Shown: positions 55,986 through 64,000 of the stretch, one piece after another
How the letters are laid out: each line of letters begins with the position of its first letter
How positions within the stretch are numbered: the stretch's first letter is position 1
DNA from: Akkermansia biwaensis
Lineage (GTDB): Bacteria; Verrucomicrobiota; Verrucomicrobiia; Verrucomicrobiales; Akkermansiaceae
Assembly (NCBI RefSeq): GCF_026072915.1
Contig: NZ_AP025943.1
Span: 1,488,001-1,552,000, forward strand
Direction of reading: 5' to 3'
DNA: 64,000 nucleotides
Position numbers and translations under genes: made by a program
Notes under the pieces: model-generated
Databases searched by the model: none
Told to the model about the DNA's origin: nothing
Seen by the model: only the letters and a program-made list of their open reading frames with translations

Positions 55986-57583
55986 CGGTGCAGTTGAGTG
56001 ACGAAACGGTGATCCAGCTTACCGGGATAATCCGTGTTGAAATTCAGGCCGCGGCTTTCGTTGCGGCGCATGGCGCAATCCACGATCAGGGAGGCCACGG
56101 CTACCAGGTTGCGCAGTTCCAGAATATCCGGCGTAATGCGGTACCCCCAGTAGAAATCCTTCACCTCCCGGTGCAGCATGCGCAGGCGCGTTGCGGCGCG
56201 GTCCAGCCTTTTGTTGGTCCGTACGATGGAGACATAATCCCACATCAGGCGGCGGATTTCATCCCAATTGTGGTAAATGACGGAAAGTTCATCAGGCAGG
56301 GCCGTATCTCCGTGGTGCCACGCGGGAATGCTGTAGCCCGTAGGGGCGTCTTTCCGCAGGGGCTGCTGGGCCAGCATGGCGTTCAGGGCGCGCTTGGCCA
56401 CCACCACGCATTCCAGCAGGGAATTGGAGGCTAGCCTGTTGGCCCCGTGCAGCCCGGTGCAGCCGGTTTCCCCGGCGGCGTAAAGGCCGTCCAGCGTGGT
56501 CTGGCCGTTGACGTCCGTCAGCACTCCGCCGCATTGGAAATGGGCGGCGGGGACTACCGGGATGGGCTCTTTGGCGGGGTTGATGCCGTAGCGGTTGCAA
56601 GTTTCGTAAATCAGGGGGAAACGCTCCTGGACAAAGCCGTCCGGTTTGTGGGAAATGTCCAGGTAAACACACATGCTGCCCGTCCTTTTCATCTCGGAGT
56701 CCACGGCCCGGGCGGTGATGTCCCGCGGAGCCAGGGACTTGCGGGGATCGTACTTGTGCATGAACTCCCTGCCGTCCGCGCCGATCAGCACGCCGCCTTC
56801 GCCGCGAACGGCCTCGGAAATGAGGAAAGAACGGGCTTCCGCGCCTTCCGCGCGCGTGTTGAAGAAGCAGGTGGGATGGAACTGGACGAACTCCATGTTG
56901 GCAATCGTGGCCCCCGCGCGCCAAGCCATAGCTACGCCGTCGCCCGTGGCGGAATCGTTGTTGGTGGTGTACAGGTACACGCGGCCGCAGCCGCCCGTGG
57001 CCAGCAGAACGCGGTCCGAACGGAAAATCTCCACTTCCCCGGAATTGCGGTCCAGCACGTAGGCGCCCAGCACCCTGTCTTCCGTAACCAGGCCCAGCTT
57101 GGTCGTCGTGATCAGGTCGATGGCGAACCGGTCTTCCATCAGTTCGATGTTGGGGTGCAGCTTGGCCGCTTCCAGCAGCTTGGAGGTGATTTCCAGGCCG
57201 GTGGCGTCCTTGGCGTGCAGGATGCGCCGTTTGGTGTGGCCTCCCTCGCGGGCCAGCTCGTAATCCTCTCCCTGCGTCGCCTGGTCGAAGTTGACTCCCC
57301 ATTCCAGCAGTTCCCGGATGGCTCCGGGGCCTTCCTCCACGATCGTGCGGACGACTTGTTCATTGCACAGCCCGGCTCCGGCGTCCAGCGTGTCCGCGAC
57401 ATGGTCCTCGAAAGAGTCGTCATGGTCCCACACGGCGGCTATGCCGCCCTGCGCCTTCGCGGAACTGCAATCCAGAAATTTTCCCTTGGTTATGACCGCA
57501 ACCCTGCCGTGTTCCGCAGCTCTCAAGGCGAAACTTAATCCGGCAACACCTGCCCCAATGACTAAAAAGTCGCTCGTCTTCAT
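55979..57583 (-). CDS. nadB: L-aspartate oxidase
   Basis: The 534-residue flavoenzyme oxidises L-aspartate to iminoaspartate, the first step of NAD synthesis. The FAD-binding start VIGAGVAGLSFALRAAEHG and the region SSAKAQGGIAAVWDHDDS are clear, as are HFQCGGVLTDVNGQTTLDGL and ETGCTGLHGANRLASNSLLE. I chose MKTSDFLVIGAG at 57583; the longer frame adds 17 unlike residues. The partner genes nadA and nadC are not in the window. The downstream secreted protein gene overlaps its stop codon. Confidence 0.95.
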   Translation of the reverse strand: MKTSDFLVIGAGVAGLSFALRAAEHGRVAVITKGKFLDCSSAKAQGGIAAVWDHDDSFEDHVADTLDAGAGLCNEQVVRTIVEEGPGAIRELLEWGVNFDQATQGEDYELAREGGHTKRRILHAKDATGLEITSKLLEAAKLHPNIELMEDRFAIDLITTTKLGLVTEDRVLGAYVLDRNSGEVEIFRSDRVLLATGGCGRVYLYTTNNDSATGDGVAMAWRAGATIANMEFVQFHPTCFFNTRAEGAEARSFLISEAVRGEGGVLIGADGREFMHKYDPRKSLAPRDITARAVDSEMKRTGSMCVYLDISHKPDGFVQERFPLIYETCNRYGINPAKEPIPVVPAAHFQCGGVLTDVNGQTTLDGLYAAGETGCTGLHGANRLASNSLLECVVVAKRALNAMLAQQPLRKDAPTGYSIPAWHHGDTALPDELSVIYHNWDEIRRLMWDYVSIVRTNKRLDRAATRLRMLHREVKDFYWGYRITPDILELRNLVAVASLIVDCAMRRNESRGLNFNTDYPGKLDHRFVTQLHRW

Positions 57584-57689
57584 CTTGAATGGTACGGAAC
57601 TGTAACATGCGGGGGGGCGGCAAGTCACGCCCAATGATGGGGGCAGGGGGCATATTTGTCTGGAAAAAAGGCAGGAAACACGCTAATTC

Positions 57690-58277
57690 ATGCGCATGAG
57701 ACCCCAAGGGAATGAACAGGAAGCGCGCCGGAACAAGCATGTCCGCAGCGCTCCGGCAAAAATCGCCGTCAGGGCGCTGGGCGAGGATGCGCTGGATGAA
57801 ATCCTGGACGGCGCGGCCAACCCCCTTCTGCTGATCCTTGACTGCGTGCAGGACCCGCACAACCTGGGCGCCATCCTGAGAACGGCCGACGGAGCGGGAG
57901 TGGACGCGGTGATCGCCCCCAGGGACAAGTCCGTGGGCATCACGGAAACCGTGCTGCGCATCTCCGTGGGGGCGGCGGAAAAGGTCCCCTTCATCCAGGT
58001 CACCAACCTGGCGCGGACCATGAAGCAGCTCCAGAGCCGCGGCATCTGGATATTCGGCACGTCGGACAAGGGAGACCGGGATTTGTACGGAACGGATTTC
58101 ACCGGCCCCGCCGCCCTGGTGATGGGCGCGGAAGGGGAAGGCATGAGACGGCTGACGGAAGAGAATTGCGACTTTCTCCTGCGGATTCCCATGAAAGGTT
58201 CCGTGCCCTGCCTGAACGTATCCGTGGCTACGGGCGTGTGCCTGTATGAAATCCTGCGCCAGCGGTCCCTTTCCTGA
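57690..58277 (+). CDS. TrmH/SpoU-type RNA 2'-O-methyltransferase (RlmB-like)
   Basis: The 195-residue enzyme has the SPOUT knot motifs: [20 protein letters not shown] (motif 1), [13 protein letters not shown] (motif 2) and [20 protein letters not shown] (motif 3). It methylates ribose in rRNA or tRNA; the motif wording is closest to RlmB, which acts on 23S rRNA G2251. The N-terminal L30e-like RNA-binding domain of full RlmB is missing or very short. The gene is divergent from nadB. Confidence 0.88.
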
Positions 58278-58304
58278 TTCTTTTTACTCCGCCATTCTGC
58301 GCTC

Positions 58305-59126
58305 ATGATTAAGGAACTTTCCCTTTCTCCGGGAGAACGCGTACGGTTTGTTTCCGACATCCACTTCGGCCATGCCAAGGCCCTGGTCAGGGAACCGGAA
58401 GAATTGAAATTCCTGTTGGAAGGGTGTACCCATCTGGTCGTATGCGGGGACTTGAGCGAAACCCGCGCAAGCCCCTATCAGGCTGAAGGGCTGCAAAAAC
58501 GCGCCCGTTTTCTGCACATGTGCGCCGAGGCCGGAGTGCAGCCCGTCCTGTTGGCGGGCAACCATGACCCCGATGAGGAATTCAGCCTGCTGAAATTGCA
58601 GGGCGGCCGTTTTTACGCGCTCCACGGTCATGCCCTGTTCAAGGAAGTGGCTCCGTGGGGGTGGGAATACCTGAAAAACAAGCGTATATCCCGCGAGTTG
58701 ATTGCCGCCTTTCCGGACGCGGATGCGGACCTGAGCCGCCGTCTGGAGCTGGCCCGCGCCATGAGTGTTCTGGTTCCGCCCATTTACACACGTTCCCGGG
58801 TTTACAGGAACAGGCTGGCGCGCTTTCTGGCGCATTCCGCATGGCCTCCGGAGCGGCCCGTGCAGATTCTCCTGGCATGGCTGACGATGATGCCGCGCAT
58901 GCGTCGGTTTGCCGACCGTTTCTTTCCTGAAGCGGAGACGGTCTTTTTCGGCCATTTGCACCGCCGCCTGGTGAGCGGCGGCCGGGGAGGGCGCCGGTAT
59001 GTCAACCTGGGAGCCTGTTTCCACCATGCCGCGTGCTATGCGGCTGATCTGACGGCGGAAGGTGAGGTGACCGTCCGCAGCTATACGCCTGCGGGATATG
59101 AAGGCCCGGCAAGGGCTGTCCGCTGA
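58305..59126 (+). CDS. Metallophosphoesterase
   Basis: The 273-residue protein shows the calcineurin-like phosphoesterase series: FVSDIHFGHAK (metal ligands D and H), VVCGDLSE, LAGNHDPDEEF and, near the C-terminus, FGHLHRR. All ligand motifs for a two-metal site are intact. The substrate (nucleotide, lipid A precursor or other) cannot be read from these. It starts 27 bp after the RNA methyltransferase gene. Confidence 0.88.
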   Translation: MIKELSLSPGERVRFVSDIHFGHAKALVREPEELKFLLEGCTHLVVCGDLSETRASPYQAEGLQKRARFLHMCAEAGVQPVLLAGNHDPDEEFSLLKLQGGRFYALHGHALFKEVAPWGWEYLKNKRISRELIAAFPDADADLSRRLELARAMSVLVPPIYTRSRVYRNRLARFLAHSAWPPERPVQILLAWLTMMPRMRRFADRFFPEAETVFFGHLHRRLVSGGRGGRRYVNLGACFHHAACYAADLTAEGEVTVRSYTPAGYEGPARAVR

Positions 59127-59156
59127 GAATTTACCCCTTGGGGCGGGAAAAAGGAA

Positions 59157-59234
59157 GGGGAACGCGTCCGGATTTGGCGATAATGTGTTAGAGCACCGGA
59201 TGACTAGTCCATACAGTTTTTGGACGCGTTCCCC
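59157..59234. repeat. Long-range inverted repeat
   Basis: GGGGAACGCGTCC (59157-59169) and its exact reverse complement GGACGCGTTCCCC (59222-59234) flank 52 bp. There is no T-run after it. It could fold as a large hairpin in the 3' end of the phosphoesterase transcript. Confidence 0.7.
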
Positions 59235-59432
59235 AAAGGGGCTGGCCGTTCCTGCGCTTCCTCCCGGGAAGGCGTGCAGGCCTTTCCGCAGCACTTCTGT
59301 GTGCATTCCCGGCAGCAGCAGAAGCGTGCAGGGGAAAAAAGGCGGGAGAAGAAACTGCCGGTTCCGTTGGGAGAACCGGAGGAGCGTTTCCGCCCTTGGT
59401 TTTTTTCCGGGATCGGGCTGACCATATGCAAA

Positions 59433-59450
59433 AGTTAGTATAAACTAACT
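59433..59450. promoter_or_regulatory. DtxR-type operator site 1
   Basis: A perfect palindrome, AGTTAGT (59433-59439) - ATAA - ACTAACT (59444-59450). It shares its 7-4-7 layout with three further sites in the same locus. Confidence 0.65.
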
Positions 59451-59501
59451 GTGTTTGCAAGAAAAAAAGTTTGGCTGAGCTAATATTTCTCCGGGAAGAA
59501 A

Positions 59502-59529
59502 TTGACTTCATTGAAACTTAAAGTATTGT
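59502..59529 (+). promoter_or_regulatory. Promoter of the DtxR-type regulator
   Basis: TTGACT (59502-59507), a 16-bp spacer and TATTGT (59524-59529) lie 28 bp before the chosen start codon. Confidence 0.55.
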
Positions 59530-59531
59530 TG

Positions 59532-59549
59532 TGTTAGGTAAATCTAATA
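59532..59549. promoter_or_regulatory. DtxR-type operator site 2 (degenerate)
   Basis: TGTTAGG (59532-59538) - TAAA - TCTAATA (59543-59549) matches the 7-4-7 layout, with five of seven arm positions paired. It begins 2 bp after the -10 box of the regulator promoter, so it fits self-repression. Confidence 0.45.
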
Positions 59550-59557
59550 ATTTTGAG

Positions 59558-59965
59558 ATGATGAATAAAAAGAATGCCTTCCCCGAATTGAGTAACAGCT
59601 TGGAAGACTATATTGAAGCCGTGCGCAATATTGAACTGGAAAAAGGATGTGCCACCGTCGGGGAGATTGCGGAGGCCCTGAACGTGAAAAAACCGTCCGT
59701 CTCCCTGGCCATGAAGCAGTTGAAGGAACGTGGCTTAGTGGAATATACGCAGTATTCTCCCATTGTCTTGACCAAATCCGGCCGCCATGAAGCCGACCGC
59801 GTGATCTCCTGCCATACCATGGTCAAGGAATTCTTGATGACGGTGCTTCATATGGAAGAACCGCGCGCGGATGAAGTGGCCTGCGGCATTGAGCACATCA
59901 TGTCTCTGGAGGAAATTTCCAGATTCCAGTTGCTCACGGACCATGTCCGGAAATGCGGGAAGTGA
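59558..59965 (+). CDS. DtxR/MntR-type metal-dependent repressor, short form
   Basis: The 135-residue protein has the DtxR winged helix (LSNSLEDYIEAVRNIELEKG, then VGEIAEALNVKKPSVSLAMK and LVEYTQYSPIVLTKSGRHEA). The metal-binding/dimerisation part follows (MVKEFLMTVLHMEEPRADEV, ACGIEHIMSLEEISRF) with Cys, Glu and His at expected ligand positions. It ends about where the SH3-like third domain of full DtxR would begin, as in MntR. Such proteins repress uptake genes when Fe(II) or Mn(II) is plentiful. The start could be the ATG at 59558 or 59561; a GTG at 59531 would overlap the operator. Confidence 0.88.
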   Translation: MMNKKNAFPELSNSLEDYIEAVRNIELEKGCATVGEIAEALNVKKPSVSLAMKQLKERGLVEYTQYSPIVLTKSGRHEADRVISCHTMVKEFLMTVLHMEEPRADEVACGIEHIMSLEEISRFQLLTDHVRKCGK

Positions 59966-60364
59966 TGAACGGCATTGCCGGAGAGGCTCCCATGAAAAAG
60001 GAGGTTTCCCGCAAAAAGAGCCGTTTTGTTCGTGTGGTGGGCGTGAATATATCCCTTTCTGCGGGATCACGCGTTCCCCGGCCTGGAGAGCAGCCAGACA
60101 TGGCCTGGCGCCGGGTGCGCTGGCGTAAAGTGTGAAGGCGTTGTAAAAGAATGCCTGCAGGACCGGCGCCATGAATCCGGAAACGCCTGGAAGAATCAGG
60201 GAAAGGTTGATGCCGGAAATAAAGCCCCGGAGTTCTTGTTGGTGAGGCGGCCGGTGGTGGGAGGCGCGGGGAGCCGGCTGGCCGCCGGAGATGTGCTGAT
60301 GCCTGCGGAAAACAAATGATCGGAGGGAATTTGTGTGGCGGATTCTTCTTTCCCGGCTTGGTGG

Positions 60365-60382
60365 AATTAGTCTGAACTAATT
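60365..60382. promoter_or_regulatory. DtxR-type operator site 3
   Basis: A perfect palindrome, AATTAGT (60365-60371) - CTGA - ACTAATT (60376-60382), 120 bp upstream of the porin-unit promoter. Confidence 0.6.
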
Positions 60383-60501
60383 TTTTCCGGTGGAGGAAAA
60401 TATATTTCTGATAGAAAATAAATTATTTACAATAAGTAAATTATGTTTTCTCCTGAGTAAAGAAATTTATTCAACAGACGAATCAAACTTGAGAAAAAGA
60501 A

Positions 60502-60530
60502 TTGACTTGAAAGTTAGATTTAACTAACTT
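60502..60530 (+). promoter_or_regulatory. Promoter of the OprB-like porin unit
   Basis: TTGACT (60502-60507), a 17-bp spacer and TAACTT (60525-60530). The operator site at 60512-60529 covers the spacer and most of the -10 box. Confidence 0.6.
60512..60529. promoter_or_regulatory. DtxR-type operator site 4
   Basis: AGTTAGA (60512-60518) - TTTA - ACTAACT (60523-60529), six of seven arm positions paired. It occupies the spacer and the -10 box of the porin-unit promoter, a position that would block transcription. Confidence 0.6.
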
Positions 60531-60541
60531 ATGGCCGTTGC

Positions 60542-60748
60542 ATGAACCTGACTTATACAGGATATCACCGTTTCCTTCACCGGGCCTGCCGGTACTGGAA
60601 GTTTGCCGGCCTGCTGGTCCGGCGTCCCCGGTACCTCCTGCTCTGCGGAGACTGCCTATTCTGTAGGGGCGCATGCGGCAAAAACGTGGAAACACGGTCC
60701 TCCGCAGACCGGAAACAGGAATATTCCTCCGGTTCCGGGCAGGGCTGA
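60542..60748 (+). CDS. Possible small basic Cys-containing protein
   Basis: This 68-residue frame starts 12 bp after the -10 box of the regulated promoter. It contains a basic segment and a clustered LLCGDCLFCRGACGKN, with four Cys in 11 residues. No known family fits, and the short leader leaves little space for a ribosome site. It may be a real small metal-related peptide or just the leader of the porin mRNA. Confidence 0.3.
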   Translation: MNLTYTGYHRFLHRACRYWKFAGLLVRRPRYLLLCGDCLFCRGACGKNVETRSSADRKQEYSSGSGQG

Positions 60749-60790
60749 ACATCTGCCAATGACGAGGAAGACTCAAAATACAGCATTACT

Positions 60791-62110
60791 ATGAAGAAAA
60801 GCTACATGATACCCGCCCTGTTCGCCTGCTCCGGCTTGTGCATGGCCGGTACGGCATCCGTAGCCACTCCCGCCGCCGCTCCGGCCGTGGAGGAGGCTGA
60901 AGGCAAAGGGTCCATTTTGGACGATATCGATCTGTTCGGAGACGAGTACGGCGACGAAAGCACGCCCATCCCGAACGATGCGCTCACCCGTGCCCTCACG
61001 GATCTGCACAAGGGAGCTTATGAAAAGGCGGGATTCCAGTTCCTGCTGGAACAGGCGTTCCTCTATACCAAGGGCCATCACGCCGCCCCCAATGAAGAGA
61101 CTTCCGGTTCCAGCCAGAGCTGGTACAAGCTGCACGCCCAGGCCGGGCTGCAATTGTTCAAGTCCGGCCGCCACCAGGGCACCTGGATCAAGAGTGAGCT
61201 TTCCGGCTCCGTGGCCCTCAACAGGCACACCCACCGCACCACCCTGGACGATTCCTGGGGAGCTAGCGGCCCGGCCAATTGCGACGTTTTTGAAGACGGT
61301 TATTTCTACCTGCCGGAACTGCTCGTTTCCCAGGGTTTCCTGGACGGCCGGCTCGTCATCATGGGCGGCATGATCAACCAGACCAACTACTTTGACGCCA
61401 ACACGTATGCCAACACTACCTTCGGCCAGTTCGGCGGGGCTCCCTTCGTCAACAACCAGGTGCTTCCGCTGGGCGACTCCAACTTCGGTTTCGTGGGCCA
61501 GTACCAGTTCAATGACAACTGGTTCCTCCAGATAGGCGGCAACATGATGGACAATGAGCCGCGGCGCAACCCCTTCCACAACACGACGGGAAAATCCTTC
61601 AACCTGCTTGGCGAAATCGGCTGGACGCATGAAAAGGCCTTCGGCATCGGCACCGGTACCTACCGTCTGCAGCCCTTCATGTTCCACGCTGCCGGCAGGA
61701 ACCACGGCGGCGTGGCGTTCAACCTGGAACAGGACCTGGGCAGCAGCCCCTTCGCCCTGTTCGCCCGCGCCGGGTGGAGCAGTGCGGAATCAGGCAACAT
61801 CTGCGGGGCGGAAGCCCAGGCTTCCGCCGGGGTGGTGTTCAAGAAACCGCTTGAAGTCATGACCGGTATGAAAGAGGCGGACGGCAACTTCTTCGGCGTC
61901 GGTTTTTCCGTAAGCAAGCCGGATTCCGATACGCTTGCGGAAACGCGTCCGGGACACGACCGGGAAATGATTCTGGAATGCACGTACAGCTTTTCCATCA
62001 CGCCGTACTGCCTGATCCAGCCCTCCTACCAGTACGTGAAGAATCCCTCTGGGCGGGATGACGTCAATTCCGCCAACATCCTTTCCGTTCAGTGCGTGAT
62101 TACTTTTTAG
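60791..62110 (+). CDS. OprB-like outer-membrane porin
   Basis: The 439-residue protein has a signal peptide (MKKSYMIPALFACSGLCMAG, cleavage near ASVA). A short acidic stretch (about 38-58, ILDDIDLFGDEYGDES) is followed by a beta-barrel of the carbohydrate-selective OprB type, with lines such as LHAQAGLQLFKSGR, LVIMGGMINQTNYFDANTYA, FVGQYQFNDNWFLQIGGNMM and a terminal aromatic residue (VQCVITF). OprB porins are named for sugars, but some relatives serve metals. The promoter carries a DtxR-type operator, so metal control is likely. Confidence 0.82.
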   Translation: MKKSYMIPALFACSGLCMAGTASVATPAAAPAVEEAEGKGSILDDIDLFGDEYGDESTPIPNDALTRALTDLHKGAYEKAGFQFLLEQAFLYTKGHHAAPNEETSGSSQSWYKLHAQAGLQLFKSGRHQGTWIKSELSGSVALNRHTHRTTLDDSWGASGPANCDVFEDGYFYLPELLVSQGFLDGRLVIMGGMINQTNYFDANTYANTTFGQFGGAPFVNNQVLPLGDSNFGFVGQYQFNDNWFLQIGGNMMDNEPRRNPFHNTTGKSFNLLGEIGWTHEKAFGIGTGTYRLQPFMFHAAGRNHGGVAFNLEQDLGSSPFALFARAGWSSAESGNICGAEAQASAGVVFKKPLEVMTGMKEADGNFFGVGFSVSKPDSDTLAETRPGHDREMILECTYSFSITPYCLIQPSYQYVKNPSGRDDVNSANILSVQCVITF

Positions 62111-62168
62111 GCTGCCGTGCCCGCACGCCTGTGAAACCACGGTAACGGTTCCAGCTTCCCTGCCGCCC

Positions 62169-62197
62169 TGCATGTGGAATGCGGATTCCCGCATGCA
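62169..62197. other. Hairpin downstream of the porin gene
   Basis: TGCATG (62169-62174) with CATGCA (62192-62197) and GGAAT (62176-62180) with ATTCC (62185-62189) form a bulged stem. No T-run follows on either strand, so it may protect the mRNA end rather than end transcription. Confidence 0.4.
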
Positions 62198-62278
62198 CCG
62201 GCATTGAAGAGGTCTGCATGACCTGGCAACGTCGCATTCTCAATCAGGTAGGGGGTGCGGCGTTGCTTATTTGCTGTG

Positions 62279-62488
62279 TTATCTCAAAGGAAGCGAGAGG
62301 CGCTTGAAACGCCTGTGTTCCTGGGCTTTCCTGTCCTGCTGGTCGGCCGGGGCCGCGGAGGACCGGCCCTCCGCGGAAGCCGCGGCCGGCGCTTTCCGGA
62401 CGGGTTCCGTACGGACGGAGGCGGCTTGGCAGGCGGCCGCGAGCAGACAGCCGGCTCCCATCATGATTAATGCGTACTTGTTCATCAT
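62279..62488 (-). CDS. Small lipoprotein
   Basis: The 69-residue frame starts with a typical lipoprotein signal (MMNKYALIMMGAGCLLAAAC, Cys about 20) and continues with an Ala/Arg/Pro-rich tail without recognisable fold. The second Met is an equally good start. It is on the minus strand, about 80 bp from a CTAAC-N5-GTTAG repeat (62568-62582). Confidence 0.5.
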   Translation of the reverse strand: MMNKYALIMMGAGCLLAAACQAASVRTEPVRKAPAAASAEGRSSAAPADQQDRKAQEHRRFKRLSLPLR

Positions 62489-62567
62489 CGTATTATTCGC
62501 GGCTGGTTGTGGCCGCTGATGGTTAGAGTAGCACCGGAGCCGGGCTGTTGAAAGTTCTTTGGTTTGA

Positions 62568-62582
62568 CTAACAATAAGTTAG
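62568..62582. promoter_or_regulatory. CTAAC-GTTAG inverted repeat
   Basis: CTAAC (62568-62572) and GTTAG (62578-62582) flank AATAA. The half-sites match those of the DtxR-type sites but in inverted order. An overlapping AGTTAGG-TGAA-TTAAACA (62577-62594) fits the 7-4-7 layout only on its left half. Function uncertain. Confidence 0.3.
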
Positions 62583-62719
62583 GTGAATTAAACATGGAAA
62601 AGAATGTTAGGGACAGCACGTTGCGGACGGGCGGATTTATGACAATTAATGACGTTTCCGGCGTTCCGAACCGTTCAAAACCATGTTGACTTGCACGGAA
62701 AGCGTTCTAAACTGACAGA

Positions 62720-63124
62720 ATGAGTAAGGTGCAATGGGAAATTTCAAATAACGAAGTGACCGACCGCGATACCGCTCTGCGCCGCCTTCAGGAAGGGACG
62801 ACCGGCCATGTGGTGTGCGCCCGCGATGGAGCCTGCCTCCAGTCCTATAAGGAAATGGAAGGCATTTACCACTGTGAAATCGTGTTCAAGACGGATGGTT
62901 GCTGTCCGCCCGTATTCGCTGCTCCGGAAGGGGTGACGGGAAAAGAGCTGGAAACGCTGTATGACCGTTTTGCGAACGGGGACGATTTCTCCTTTGTGGA
63001 AAAGGAATGGGAACCCTTGGTTGCCGTGGAATACCGTCACCACCACAATGTCATGTGGTTCGTGTTCCTGTTCATTGCGATGGTAGTTGTGGCCGTGATG
63101 GCCTACGAACACGGCTGGATGTGA
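62720..63124 (+). CDS. Small membrane-anchored protein of unknown function
   Basis: The 134-residue protein has a soluble N-terminal domain with two Cys pairs (CARDGACLQ and DGCCPPVF) and one C-terminal membrane segment (VMWFVFLFIAMVVVAVMAY, about 110-128), preceded by HHH. I recognise no family. The Cys and His residues and its place between porin and feoB genes make a metal role thinkable. A TTGACT-N16-TAAACT promoter precedes it. Confidence 0.7.
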   Translation: MSKVQWEISNNEVTDRDTALRRLQEGTTGHVVCARDGACLQSYKEMEGIYHCEIVFKTDGCCPPVFAAPEGVTGKELETLYDRFANGDDFSFVEKEWEPLVAVEYRHHHNVMWFVFLFIAMVVVAVMAYEHGWM

Positions 63125-63231
63125 GATTGCCGGAAACGGGACGGCGGCGCTTGCCCGGCGGACTTTTCGCAGGGGAATGCTTTTTTGTCCTTCCGGGGTA
63201 GCATTTGGGGCGGAAGACCTGCCTTGAATTC

Positions 63232-63262
63232 AAAAGCCCCCGGAACATCTTCCGGAGGCTTT
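63232..63262. terminator. Hairpin between convergent genes
   Basis: AAAAGCC and GGCTTT together with CCGGAA and TTCCGG form a bulged stem. It lies between the plus-strand small membrane gene and the minus-strand feoB pair, and the minus side continues with CTTTTG. It probably serves the minus-strand unit. Confidence 0.6.
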
Positions 63263-63306
63263 CGGGAGAAGCGCACCCTTGAAGATGCGCCTGACTTCAT
63301 AGGCTG

Positions 63307-63498
63307 TTAATGGTGGCCGTGATGGTCACCGCAATGGCACGAATGCTTGTTGCCGGTTTCCCCGTCAGAGGAGGGAGCCTTTGACCGGCAGCAGCCGGAG
63401 CAACCGCCGCAGCACGATTTCCCCTTGGAGAAAAAGGTGCGGTAAATGGCATAGCAGAATGCCAGGAAAATCAGGGTTCCGATGATATATGTAGCCAT
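63307..63498 (-). CDS. FeoB-associated Cys-rich membrane protein
   Basis: The 63-residue protein has one membrane segment (YIIGTLIFLAFCYAIYRTFF, about 4-23), then GKSCCGGCSGCCRSK, and a His-rich end (HSCHCGDHHGHH). This is the layout of the small FeoB-associated Cys-rich proteins that accompany the ferrous iron transporter. The C-terminal His cluster is an addition to the basic plan. It starts 12 bp after feoB, on the same transcript. Confidence 0.88.
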   Translation of the reverse strand: MATYIIGTLIFLAFCYAIYRTFFSKGKSCCGGCSGCCRSKAPSSDGETGNKHSCHCGDHHGHH

Positions 63499-63510
63499 GA
63501 TGAATAGGAA

Positions 63511-64000
63511 TTAATGGATTGATTTCTTGGGGGCCGCTTTGCGGAAGATCAGGTAAAGGCCTCCCACCAGGCCGATCAGGGCGACGACCTGTCCCGTGCC
63601 GAACGTGCCGTCTCGGACAAGGATGCCCAGCTGGTACACCAGGAAGGCCACGTAATAGGCCCAGCCACAGAGCCAGAGAATGGCGAACCATGTCCATTTG
63701 GCGCTGTTCATTTCCCGGCGCATAGCGCCCATGGCCGCAAAGCACGGAGCGCACAGCAGGTTGAAGAGGAGGAAGGAGAATGCCACGATGGAGTCGCCCC
63801 CCAGTGCATTGGCGGCACGGAGCACCCCGGCGGTGGCTTTTTCTTCCTGAGCCTCTTCATCAAGCGCTTCTTCTTCAGCCGCGGCGGAAGCTTGTTCGCT
63901 GCCGGACGGTTCATCGGCGGCGGATGCCGGAGCTTCCCCTTCCGGAACGGAGGCGGCTTCTTCCCGGGTCCGGCTGGAATTCCATGTGTCCAGGGCGGCT
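63511..64000 (-). CDS. feoB: Ferrous iron transport protein B, C-terminal part (runs off the window)
   Basis: About 163 residues are visible, ending in KKSIH at 63513. The last membrane part matches FeoB: SIVAFSFLLFNLLCAPCFAA, then MGAMRREM, then WTWFAILWLCGWAYYVAFL and a final span. Ahead of it (about 63829-63970) is an insert of roughly 45 residues rich in Ala and Glu (ASAAAEEEALDEEAQEEKAT), much longer than the usual loop. The GTPase domain and most of the membrane domain lie beyond 64000. It is followed by the Cys-rich partner. Confidence 0.85.
   Translation of the reverse strand, partial: AALDTWNSSRTREEAASVPEGEAPASAADEPSGSEQASAAAEEEALDEEAQEEKATAGVLRAANALGGDSIVAFSFLLFNLLCAPCFAAMGAMRREMNSAKWTWFAILWLCGWAYYVAFLVYQLGILVRDGTFGTGQVVALIGLVGGLYLIFRKAAPKKSIH

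Follow-up and report, generated by a model that had tools for sequence, protein, structure and literature searches.

This locus raises the question of whether the short palindromes around a DtxR-type gene of Akkermansia biwaensis are the operators of a metal-responsive regulon and, if so, which protein and which metal would act through them. We analysed the whole 64-kb stretch of DNA (the window) and compared its sites with related genomes and with operators of known metalloregulators. The reading that we favour, at a probability of about 80%, is that a metal-activated dimer of the DtxR/MntR family uses the palindromes as its operators, one dimer to each TTAG-N6-CTAA, working by the mechanism set out below. 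The features concerned are the following.

59433..59450, strand., proposed operator R1, distal regulator site; perfect 7-4-7 palindrome, at the same place in other regulator-bearing genomes
59468..59485, strand., proposed operator R2, middle regulator site, AGTTTG-N6-CTAATA; arms conserved and spacer variable in seven other genomes
59502..59529, strand +, putative regulator promoter TTGACT-N16-TATTGT (-35 at 59502-59507, -10 at 59524-59529); read from the sequence, -35 conserved in the alignment
59532..59549, strand., proposed operator R3, an imperfect palindrome that closely follows the regulator -10; direct reading, alignment and core scan
59561..59965, strand +, DtxR1, 134-aa DtxR/MntR-family metalloregulator without SH3 domain; Pfam PF01325 and PF02742
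60365..60382, strand., proposed operator P1, distal porin-unit site, perfect palindrome; 135-147 bp from P2 in other genomes
60502..60530, strand +, putative porin-unit promoter TTGACT-N17-TAACTT; read from the sequence, conserved, similar layout at feoAB
60512..60529, strand., proposed operator P2, occupying both spacer and -10 in the porin-unit promoter; direct reading, conserved
60542..60748, strand +, small conserved Cys-rich ORF of 68 aa with CGxCxxCxGACG, first in the porin unit; homologues of 63-68 aa in six further genomes
60791..62110, strand +, OprB-family porin; PF04966, 5.6e-21
63307..63498, strand -, probably a Cys-rich FeoB-associated protein, encoded last in the feo operon; PF12669 at 19.6 bits, below the cut-off of 27
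63511..64000, strand -, 3' part of feoB; FeoB_N, FeoB_Cyto and FeoB_C

Direct reading of the sequence confirmed the four palindromes that an earlier note had located in the window. The core TTAG-Nk-CTAA, scanned with k from 0 to 12, occurred four times in 64 kb (starts 59435, 59534, 60367 and 60514), always with k = 6 and all inside 1.1 kb; no other spacing in that range was present across the window, a striking pattern. Two sites were perfect palindromes, as claimed, with 7/7 arm positions paired: 59433 (AGTTAGT-ATAA-ACTAACT) and 60365 (AATTAGT-CTGA-ACTAATT). The arms of 60512 (AGTTAGA-TTTA-ACTAACT) paired at 6/7 positions and those of 59532 (TGTTAGG-TAAA-TCTAATA) at 5/7; the latter has four mismatches to the consensus of the note and is therefore absent from a 3-mismatch scan. 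That loose scan gave four matches in the window against a shuffle mean of 1.92, with 12 of 100 shuffles reaching four, and alone is not significant, so the case rests on the cross-genome comparison. The described promoter overlaps also held: the regulator -10 ends at 59529, with the site beginning at 59532, and site 60512 lies over the spacer and -10 between TTGACT (60502-60507) and TAACTT (60525-60530). An additional conserved site at 59468 (AGTTTGGCTGAGCTAATA) had not been listed. An Rfam search of 56000-64000 returned nothing at or above gathering score.

Two feo operators lie beyond the window, at G000:C1:1555215 and G000:C1:1555303 (G000 being the window's genome), as do two feoA-like genes, read from their translation. 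The ORF at 60542-60748 starts a few bases past the point where transcription of the porin unit is expected to begin and is possibly almost leaderless; its homologues were found at seven loci besides that of the window, one of them a repeat of G052, and the L003 and L005 loci stop short of the ORF. Between the porin and feo units, a CTAAC-AAYAA-GTTAG element at 62568-62582 was present in 5/5 genomes, with one base varying. Its arms (CTAAC-N5-GTTAG) are reversed relative to the motif, and it was excluded from the count.

DtxR1, for which 59558 is an alternative start, scored above the cut-offs for both family domains, with 52.1 bits for the N-terminal winged helix (PF01325, cut-off 26) and 49.1 for the metal-binding dimerisation domain (PF02742, cut-off 27), and its best PDB sequence matches were MntR structures, in agreement with its earlier description as DtxR/MntR-like. 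Its scores against the NCBIfam MntR equivalogs were below cut-off (78.4 bits against 138 and 74.0 against 153). The protein ends at 134 aa and has no C-terminal SH3-like domain of the DtxR/IdeR kind. The metal residues by alignment are D16, E19, H85, C108, E111 and H112. The ligands of MntR are D8, E11, H77, E99, E102 and H103; five of these six are kept in DtxR1, and E99 is replaced by Cys. E105 and H106, alongside M10 and C102, are the primary-site ligands of DtxR/IdeR, of which C, E and H are kept and M10 is replaced by Asp. DtxR1 is 83-99% identical to proteins from five Akkermansia, A. muciniphila or Akkermansiaceae records, and a sixth match (Cohnella) covered 36 residues only. By regulator identity, G000 would belong to the Akkermansia muciniphila clade or lie very close to it.

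Among 59 genomes of the genus, eight relatives encode a close DtxR1 orthologue (75-99% identical). The three sites upstream of DtxR1 recur in seven of them, and G014 has two of the three, lacking the middle site, which the other seven keep as AGTTTG-N6-CTAAT[AT]. The two porin sites recur in relatives 135-147 bp apart, and alignments across genomes showed conserved arms and drifting spacers. For counting, loci were selected independently of the pattern, through protein similarity or gene position, and their TTAG-CTAA spacings were then tallied; the resulting histogram had its maximum at k = 6. This spacing occurred upstream of DtxR1 in 9/9 loci fetched by protein similarity and upstream of feoB in 28/29 Akkermansia loci (9/10 in the muciniphila clade, counting G014, and 19/19 in the sister genomes). 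The sister count includes L069 (G012), a distant FeoB (39%) with one site at -429 that departs from the 18-bp pattern at more than two positions. Small secondary peaks at the feoB loci fell at k = 1 (six in sisters) and k = 10 (six in the clade). Upstream of enolase, k = 6 was found in 11 of 13 Akkermansia loci, the exceptions being G014 and G052, among the best 30 of 106 genomes, a sample outside which most sister enolases fall. For nuoD the counts, made without shuffles, were 11/12 in the A. muciniphila clade (11/11 without G014, which had 0/1) and 4/14 in sisters. Dinucleotide shuffles gave means of 0.015-0.105 loci over the sets, with a maximum of 2 (0.07-0.11 for feoB). Loci without a P-loop match (L050, L054 and L153) were dropped from the feo counts and those without a start motif (L172, L174, L175, L178, L179 and L185) from the enolase counts.

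The palindromes are thus present in orthologous regions of close relatives at the regulator, porin and feo loci, where their absence had been named as grounds against the regulon, and their conservation bears out the proposal of a metal-type regulon around a DtxR/MntR-family gene that includes feo and the porin. The suggestion of an operator type for Verrucomicrobiota found no support in the best-matching genomes: k = 6 occurred in 0/20 feoB loci from other genera of the family (best 30 of 58 genomes with FeoB matches, including 21 of the 49 genomes from other genera, 20 of them countable), in 0/4 of their nuoD loci and in 0/11 enolase loci from outside the genus (best 30 of 106 genomes). The enolase counts are by genus; an alternative split, set after seeing the data, gives 11/11 and 0/13. 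Judged by sequence, the TTAG-N6-CTAA element is confined to Akkermansia in the loci examined.

Sites were also listed genome-wide in nine genomes, with genes assigned by tblastn for 40 places in six genomes. RTTAGN6CTAAY was not above its reversed control in G000 (10 vs 11) or G014 (6 vs 17) and exceeded it in the other seven; the 18-bp pattern with two mismatches matched 29 places against 71 for the control. Because counts in G000 and G014 are not enriched, the evidence is one of position, not of number. Sites precede the porin and two P-type ATPases, and among the matches listed conserved sites stand before genes for a P1B ATPase and a CopA-like ATPase (TIGR01512 and TIGR01511), NuoD, a DUF3472 protein after nuoN, and enolase. 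The CopA-like ATPase site of G000 has two mismatches. Ten muciniphila-clade genomes have two enolases, about 78% alike, and only one copy has the site; the second copy has none in 10/10 genomes (pair positions L034 3441-4730 and G000:C1:1971049-1972305). Loci with no assigned gene were excluded from the regulon (L072, L074, L077, L078, L081, L085, L092, L093, L095, L098, L104, L116, L126 and L129). In six of the loci (L077, L081, L085, L093, L098 and L104, each from a different genome), GTTAG-N6-CTAAC lies near 1501 beside a conserved TTCCCCGCATGTCG-like sequence.

Judged by promoter-like hexamers, the site at feoAB and at the porin covers both spacer and -10; at the regulator and enolase it closely follows the -10, and at the P1B ATPase it closely precedes a putative -35 (7/7 genomes shown); at nuoD the site is about 70 bp before the -35, and at DtxR2, a second DtxR paralogue, it covers a possible -35 and the spacer. 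In the mechanism that we infer, each TTAG-N6-CTAA, half of a two-dimer DtxR box, would take one dimer. At plentiful metal, the metal-loaded regulator on the spacer and -10 (feoAB, porin) would block RNA polymerase, and so would a regulator bound shortly after the -10, at its own gene and at enolase A. The site directly upstream of the putative -35 of the P1B-type metal-export ATPase fits activation. Metal shortage would open ferrous uptake, the porin and a second enolase, and metal excess would turn export on. Repression at most targets and activation at the P1B ATPase are proposed by analogy with MntR of B. subtilis, a regulator that acts from several sites to repress uptake and to activate exporters (PMC11275975).

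A DtxR search matched 56/59 genus genomes at all; sister genomes lack DtxR1 and carry one paralogue, DtxR2, which would have to read the sites there. In the tree, the DtxR1 sequences formed a single clade (99/100) nested among the Akkermansia DtxR proteins, which stood apart from MntR-like proteins of other genera (100/100); the nearest neighbours of DtxR1 were weakly supported and flagged for long branches. A possible, if doubtful, arrangement is that DtxR2, the genus-wide paralogue, reads most sites and DtxR1 controls mainly itself and the porin. It would account for feo and enolase sites in sister genomes without DtxR1, and for G014, which keeps DtxR1 with sites at that gene and its divergent porin and has none at feo, nuoD, enolase or DtxR2. 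DtxR2 also has a conserved site of its own in 9/10 clade genomes (exception G014), as expected of an autoregulator; in L037 this site, AGTTAGTTCCGCCTAAGG, lies about 58 bp before the EDYLEA codons and was missed by the stricter genome pattern. However, k = 6 was found upstream of 0/21 sister DtxR2 genes, G014 has DtxR2 yet no feo site, and the recognition helices of the two paralogues are nearly alike, so shared binding is equally likely.

With regard to the metal, we consider Fe(II) the most likely co-regulator of the DtxR-family dimer because feoAB is the most widely kept target, the Fur family has shrunk and the Glu of MntR has given way to a Cys. Fur-family members number two to five in 69/70 genomes of other genera (mostly three) and one in G060; of nine Akkermansia genomes, seven have one and two have none. 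A regulon that senses Mn(II) in the manner of MntR, with feo as a secondary target, is a tentative alternative. Asp16, at the Met10 position, is the MntR residue and favours Mn(II); together with Glu19 it matches MntR D8 and E11, and the best PDB and NCBIfam matches are to MntR, though the latter at 78.4 bits is below its cut-off. In addition, two sites accompany a ZnuA-type ABC transporter in one sister genome. Against manganese, Cys108 stands in place of MntR Glu99, and such a ligand raises Fe(II) selectivity (PMC10317159); the breadth of feoAB conservation and the lack of an mntH-like target among the sites examined point the same way. Against the favoured reading, complex I and enolase would be unexpected members of a regulon under simple iron repression. 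The two sites of that sister genome (G049, L132 1474-1517) are part of a longer inverted repeat before the transporter, which could be a hairpin.

Fur proteins usually control feo, and G000 has one Fur-family gene, yet a Fur/PerR-type reader is very improbable: G019 and G024 have no Fur-family match, a single DtxR each and feo sites, which makes the DtxR protein the candidate reader; the Fur-family gene of G000 is PerR-like by best match (82.5 bits, below the cut-off of 180) and adjoins sufC and sufB; and the sites match DtxR half-boxes. Fur and PerR were rejected on the strength of those two genomes. In Akkermansia, the control of iron appears to have shifted from Fur to a small DtxR protein that has no SH3 domain and has mixed Asp/Cys metal ligands. 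Chance palindromes or transcription terminators can be dismissed for the window sites, since place, geometry and arms are conserved with drifting spacers in many genomes and the sites overlap promoter-like hexamers, even though whole-genome counts are not enriched in G000 and one genome-wide match, G000:C1:2349225, looks like a terminator hairpin and is kept as such.

Beside DtxR1 lies a hairpin of about 78 nt (59157-59234, GGGGAACGCGTCC...GGACGCGTTCCCC), the loop of which is almost invariant in 8/59 genus genomes. Its fold z-score is -5.3, it has no Rfam match, and there was no covariation by which to assess it; it is a candidate small RNA or mobile-element end.

Among the matches listed in the open-licence literature, no paper dealt with a DtxR regulon of Akkermansia or Verrucomicrobia. 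At roughly even odds, we propose a handover from Fur to DtxR in Akkermansia, in which an SH3-less Asp/Cys DtxR has single-dimer half-boxes as its usual operator, altered together with the base-reading residue (Gln43 to Leu, Ser, Ala or Val); it would repress uptake and an enolase isozyme, activate metal export and reach complex I, and the DtxR1 duplicate would have been added in the muciniphila clade, both paralogues having an operator and forming a small network. In Akkermansia, the sites appear to mark genes for iron uptake, for metal export and for respiration as well as a spare enolase, and would provide a first map of its metal control, including a metal-controlled choice between two enolases. 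A 2023 review counts the function of one-dimer half-sites among the questions still open and states that most Gram-negative bacteria use Fur for iron and DtxR proteins for manganese (PMC10317159). Both points could be addressed with two small proteins and a few promoters in this Gram-negative gut symbiont, where a whole set of half-sites is conserved.

The proposed regulon resembles the Fur iron regulon in its physiological role at feoAB and differs in protein family and operator, the Fur family being down to 0-1 genes in nine Akkermansia genomes. The MntR site of Bacillus subtilis differs in sequence from the Akkermansia site. B. subtilis MntR, as described in PMC11275975, is likewise small and SH3-less, with an 18-bp site per dimer and several sites per promoter, and its dual repression and activation may have a counterpart in Akkermansia; unlike it, DtxR1 has Cys for Glu99, and the core target is feoAB, not manganese transporters.

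The Akkermansia site corresponds to one of the two interleaved dimer sites of the classical DtxR/IdeR box TTAGGTTAGSCTAACCTAA, but with two of its four repeats, so that one dimer is expected, not two. The full two-dimer 19-bp box, with four repeats and TTAG-N1-CTAA inside, was sought in the window by that inner pair and rejected for its sites, no k = 1 pair being present; a few sister sites approach the overlapping two-dimer form, such as AGTTAGGTTAGTCTAATA in G024. The earlier note had set the motif apart from the DtxR box by its spacing, a distinction that falls away because it had paired the inner TTAG and CTAA, 1 bp apart, of different dimers; the TTAG and CTAA touched by a single dimer on the DtxR/IdeR box are separated by exactly 6 bp (PMC8464063), the spacing seen here. 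The closest counterpart is the one-dimer half-site TTAGGNNNNCCTAA proposed for IdeR of Saccharopolyspora erythraea in PMC8464063, the string occurring nowhere else in the open-licence literature searched. In gel shifts, one IdeR dimer bound a designed half-site (apparent KD 78 nM) and the nuo promoter site (102 nM) (PMC8464063). The Akkermansia sites share its TTAG-N6-CTAA geometry, the expected single dimer and one site at a complex I (nuo) promoter. They differ in that single or well-separated sites appear to be the standard operator and in the inner base, which is mostly T/A, not the G/C of TTAGG...CCTAA: position 5 is T in 25/38 and 19/34 sites and G in three of each set. Gln43 of IdeR makes contact with the first C of CCTAA (PMC8464063); Leu49 of DtxR1 aligns to this position (query 10-121 to DtxR chain 4-115, equal lengths), and aligned DtxR2 rows have Ser, Ala or Val. 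The replacement agrees with the inner T/A and is suggestive, no proof; the base-contact argument is weak because IdeR also recognises a target without the Gln43 contact (PMC8464063). On sequence grounds, the Akkermansia element would be a single-dimer DtxR half-box with mostly T/A where IdeR has G/C.
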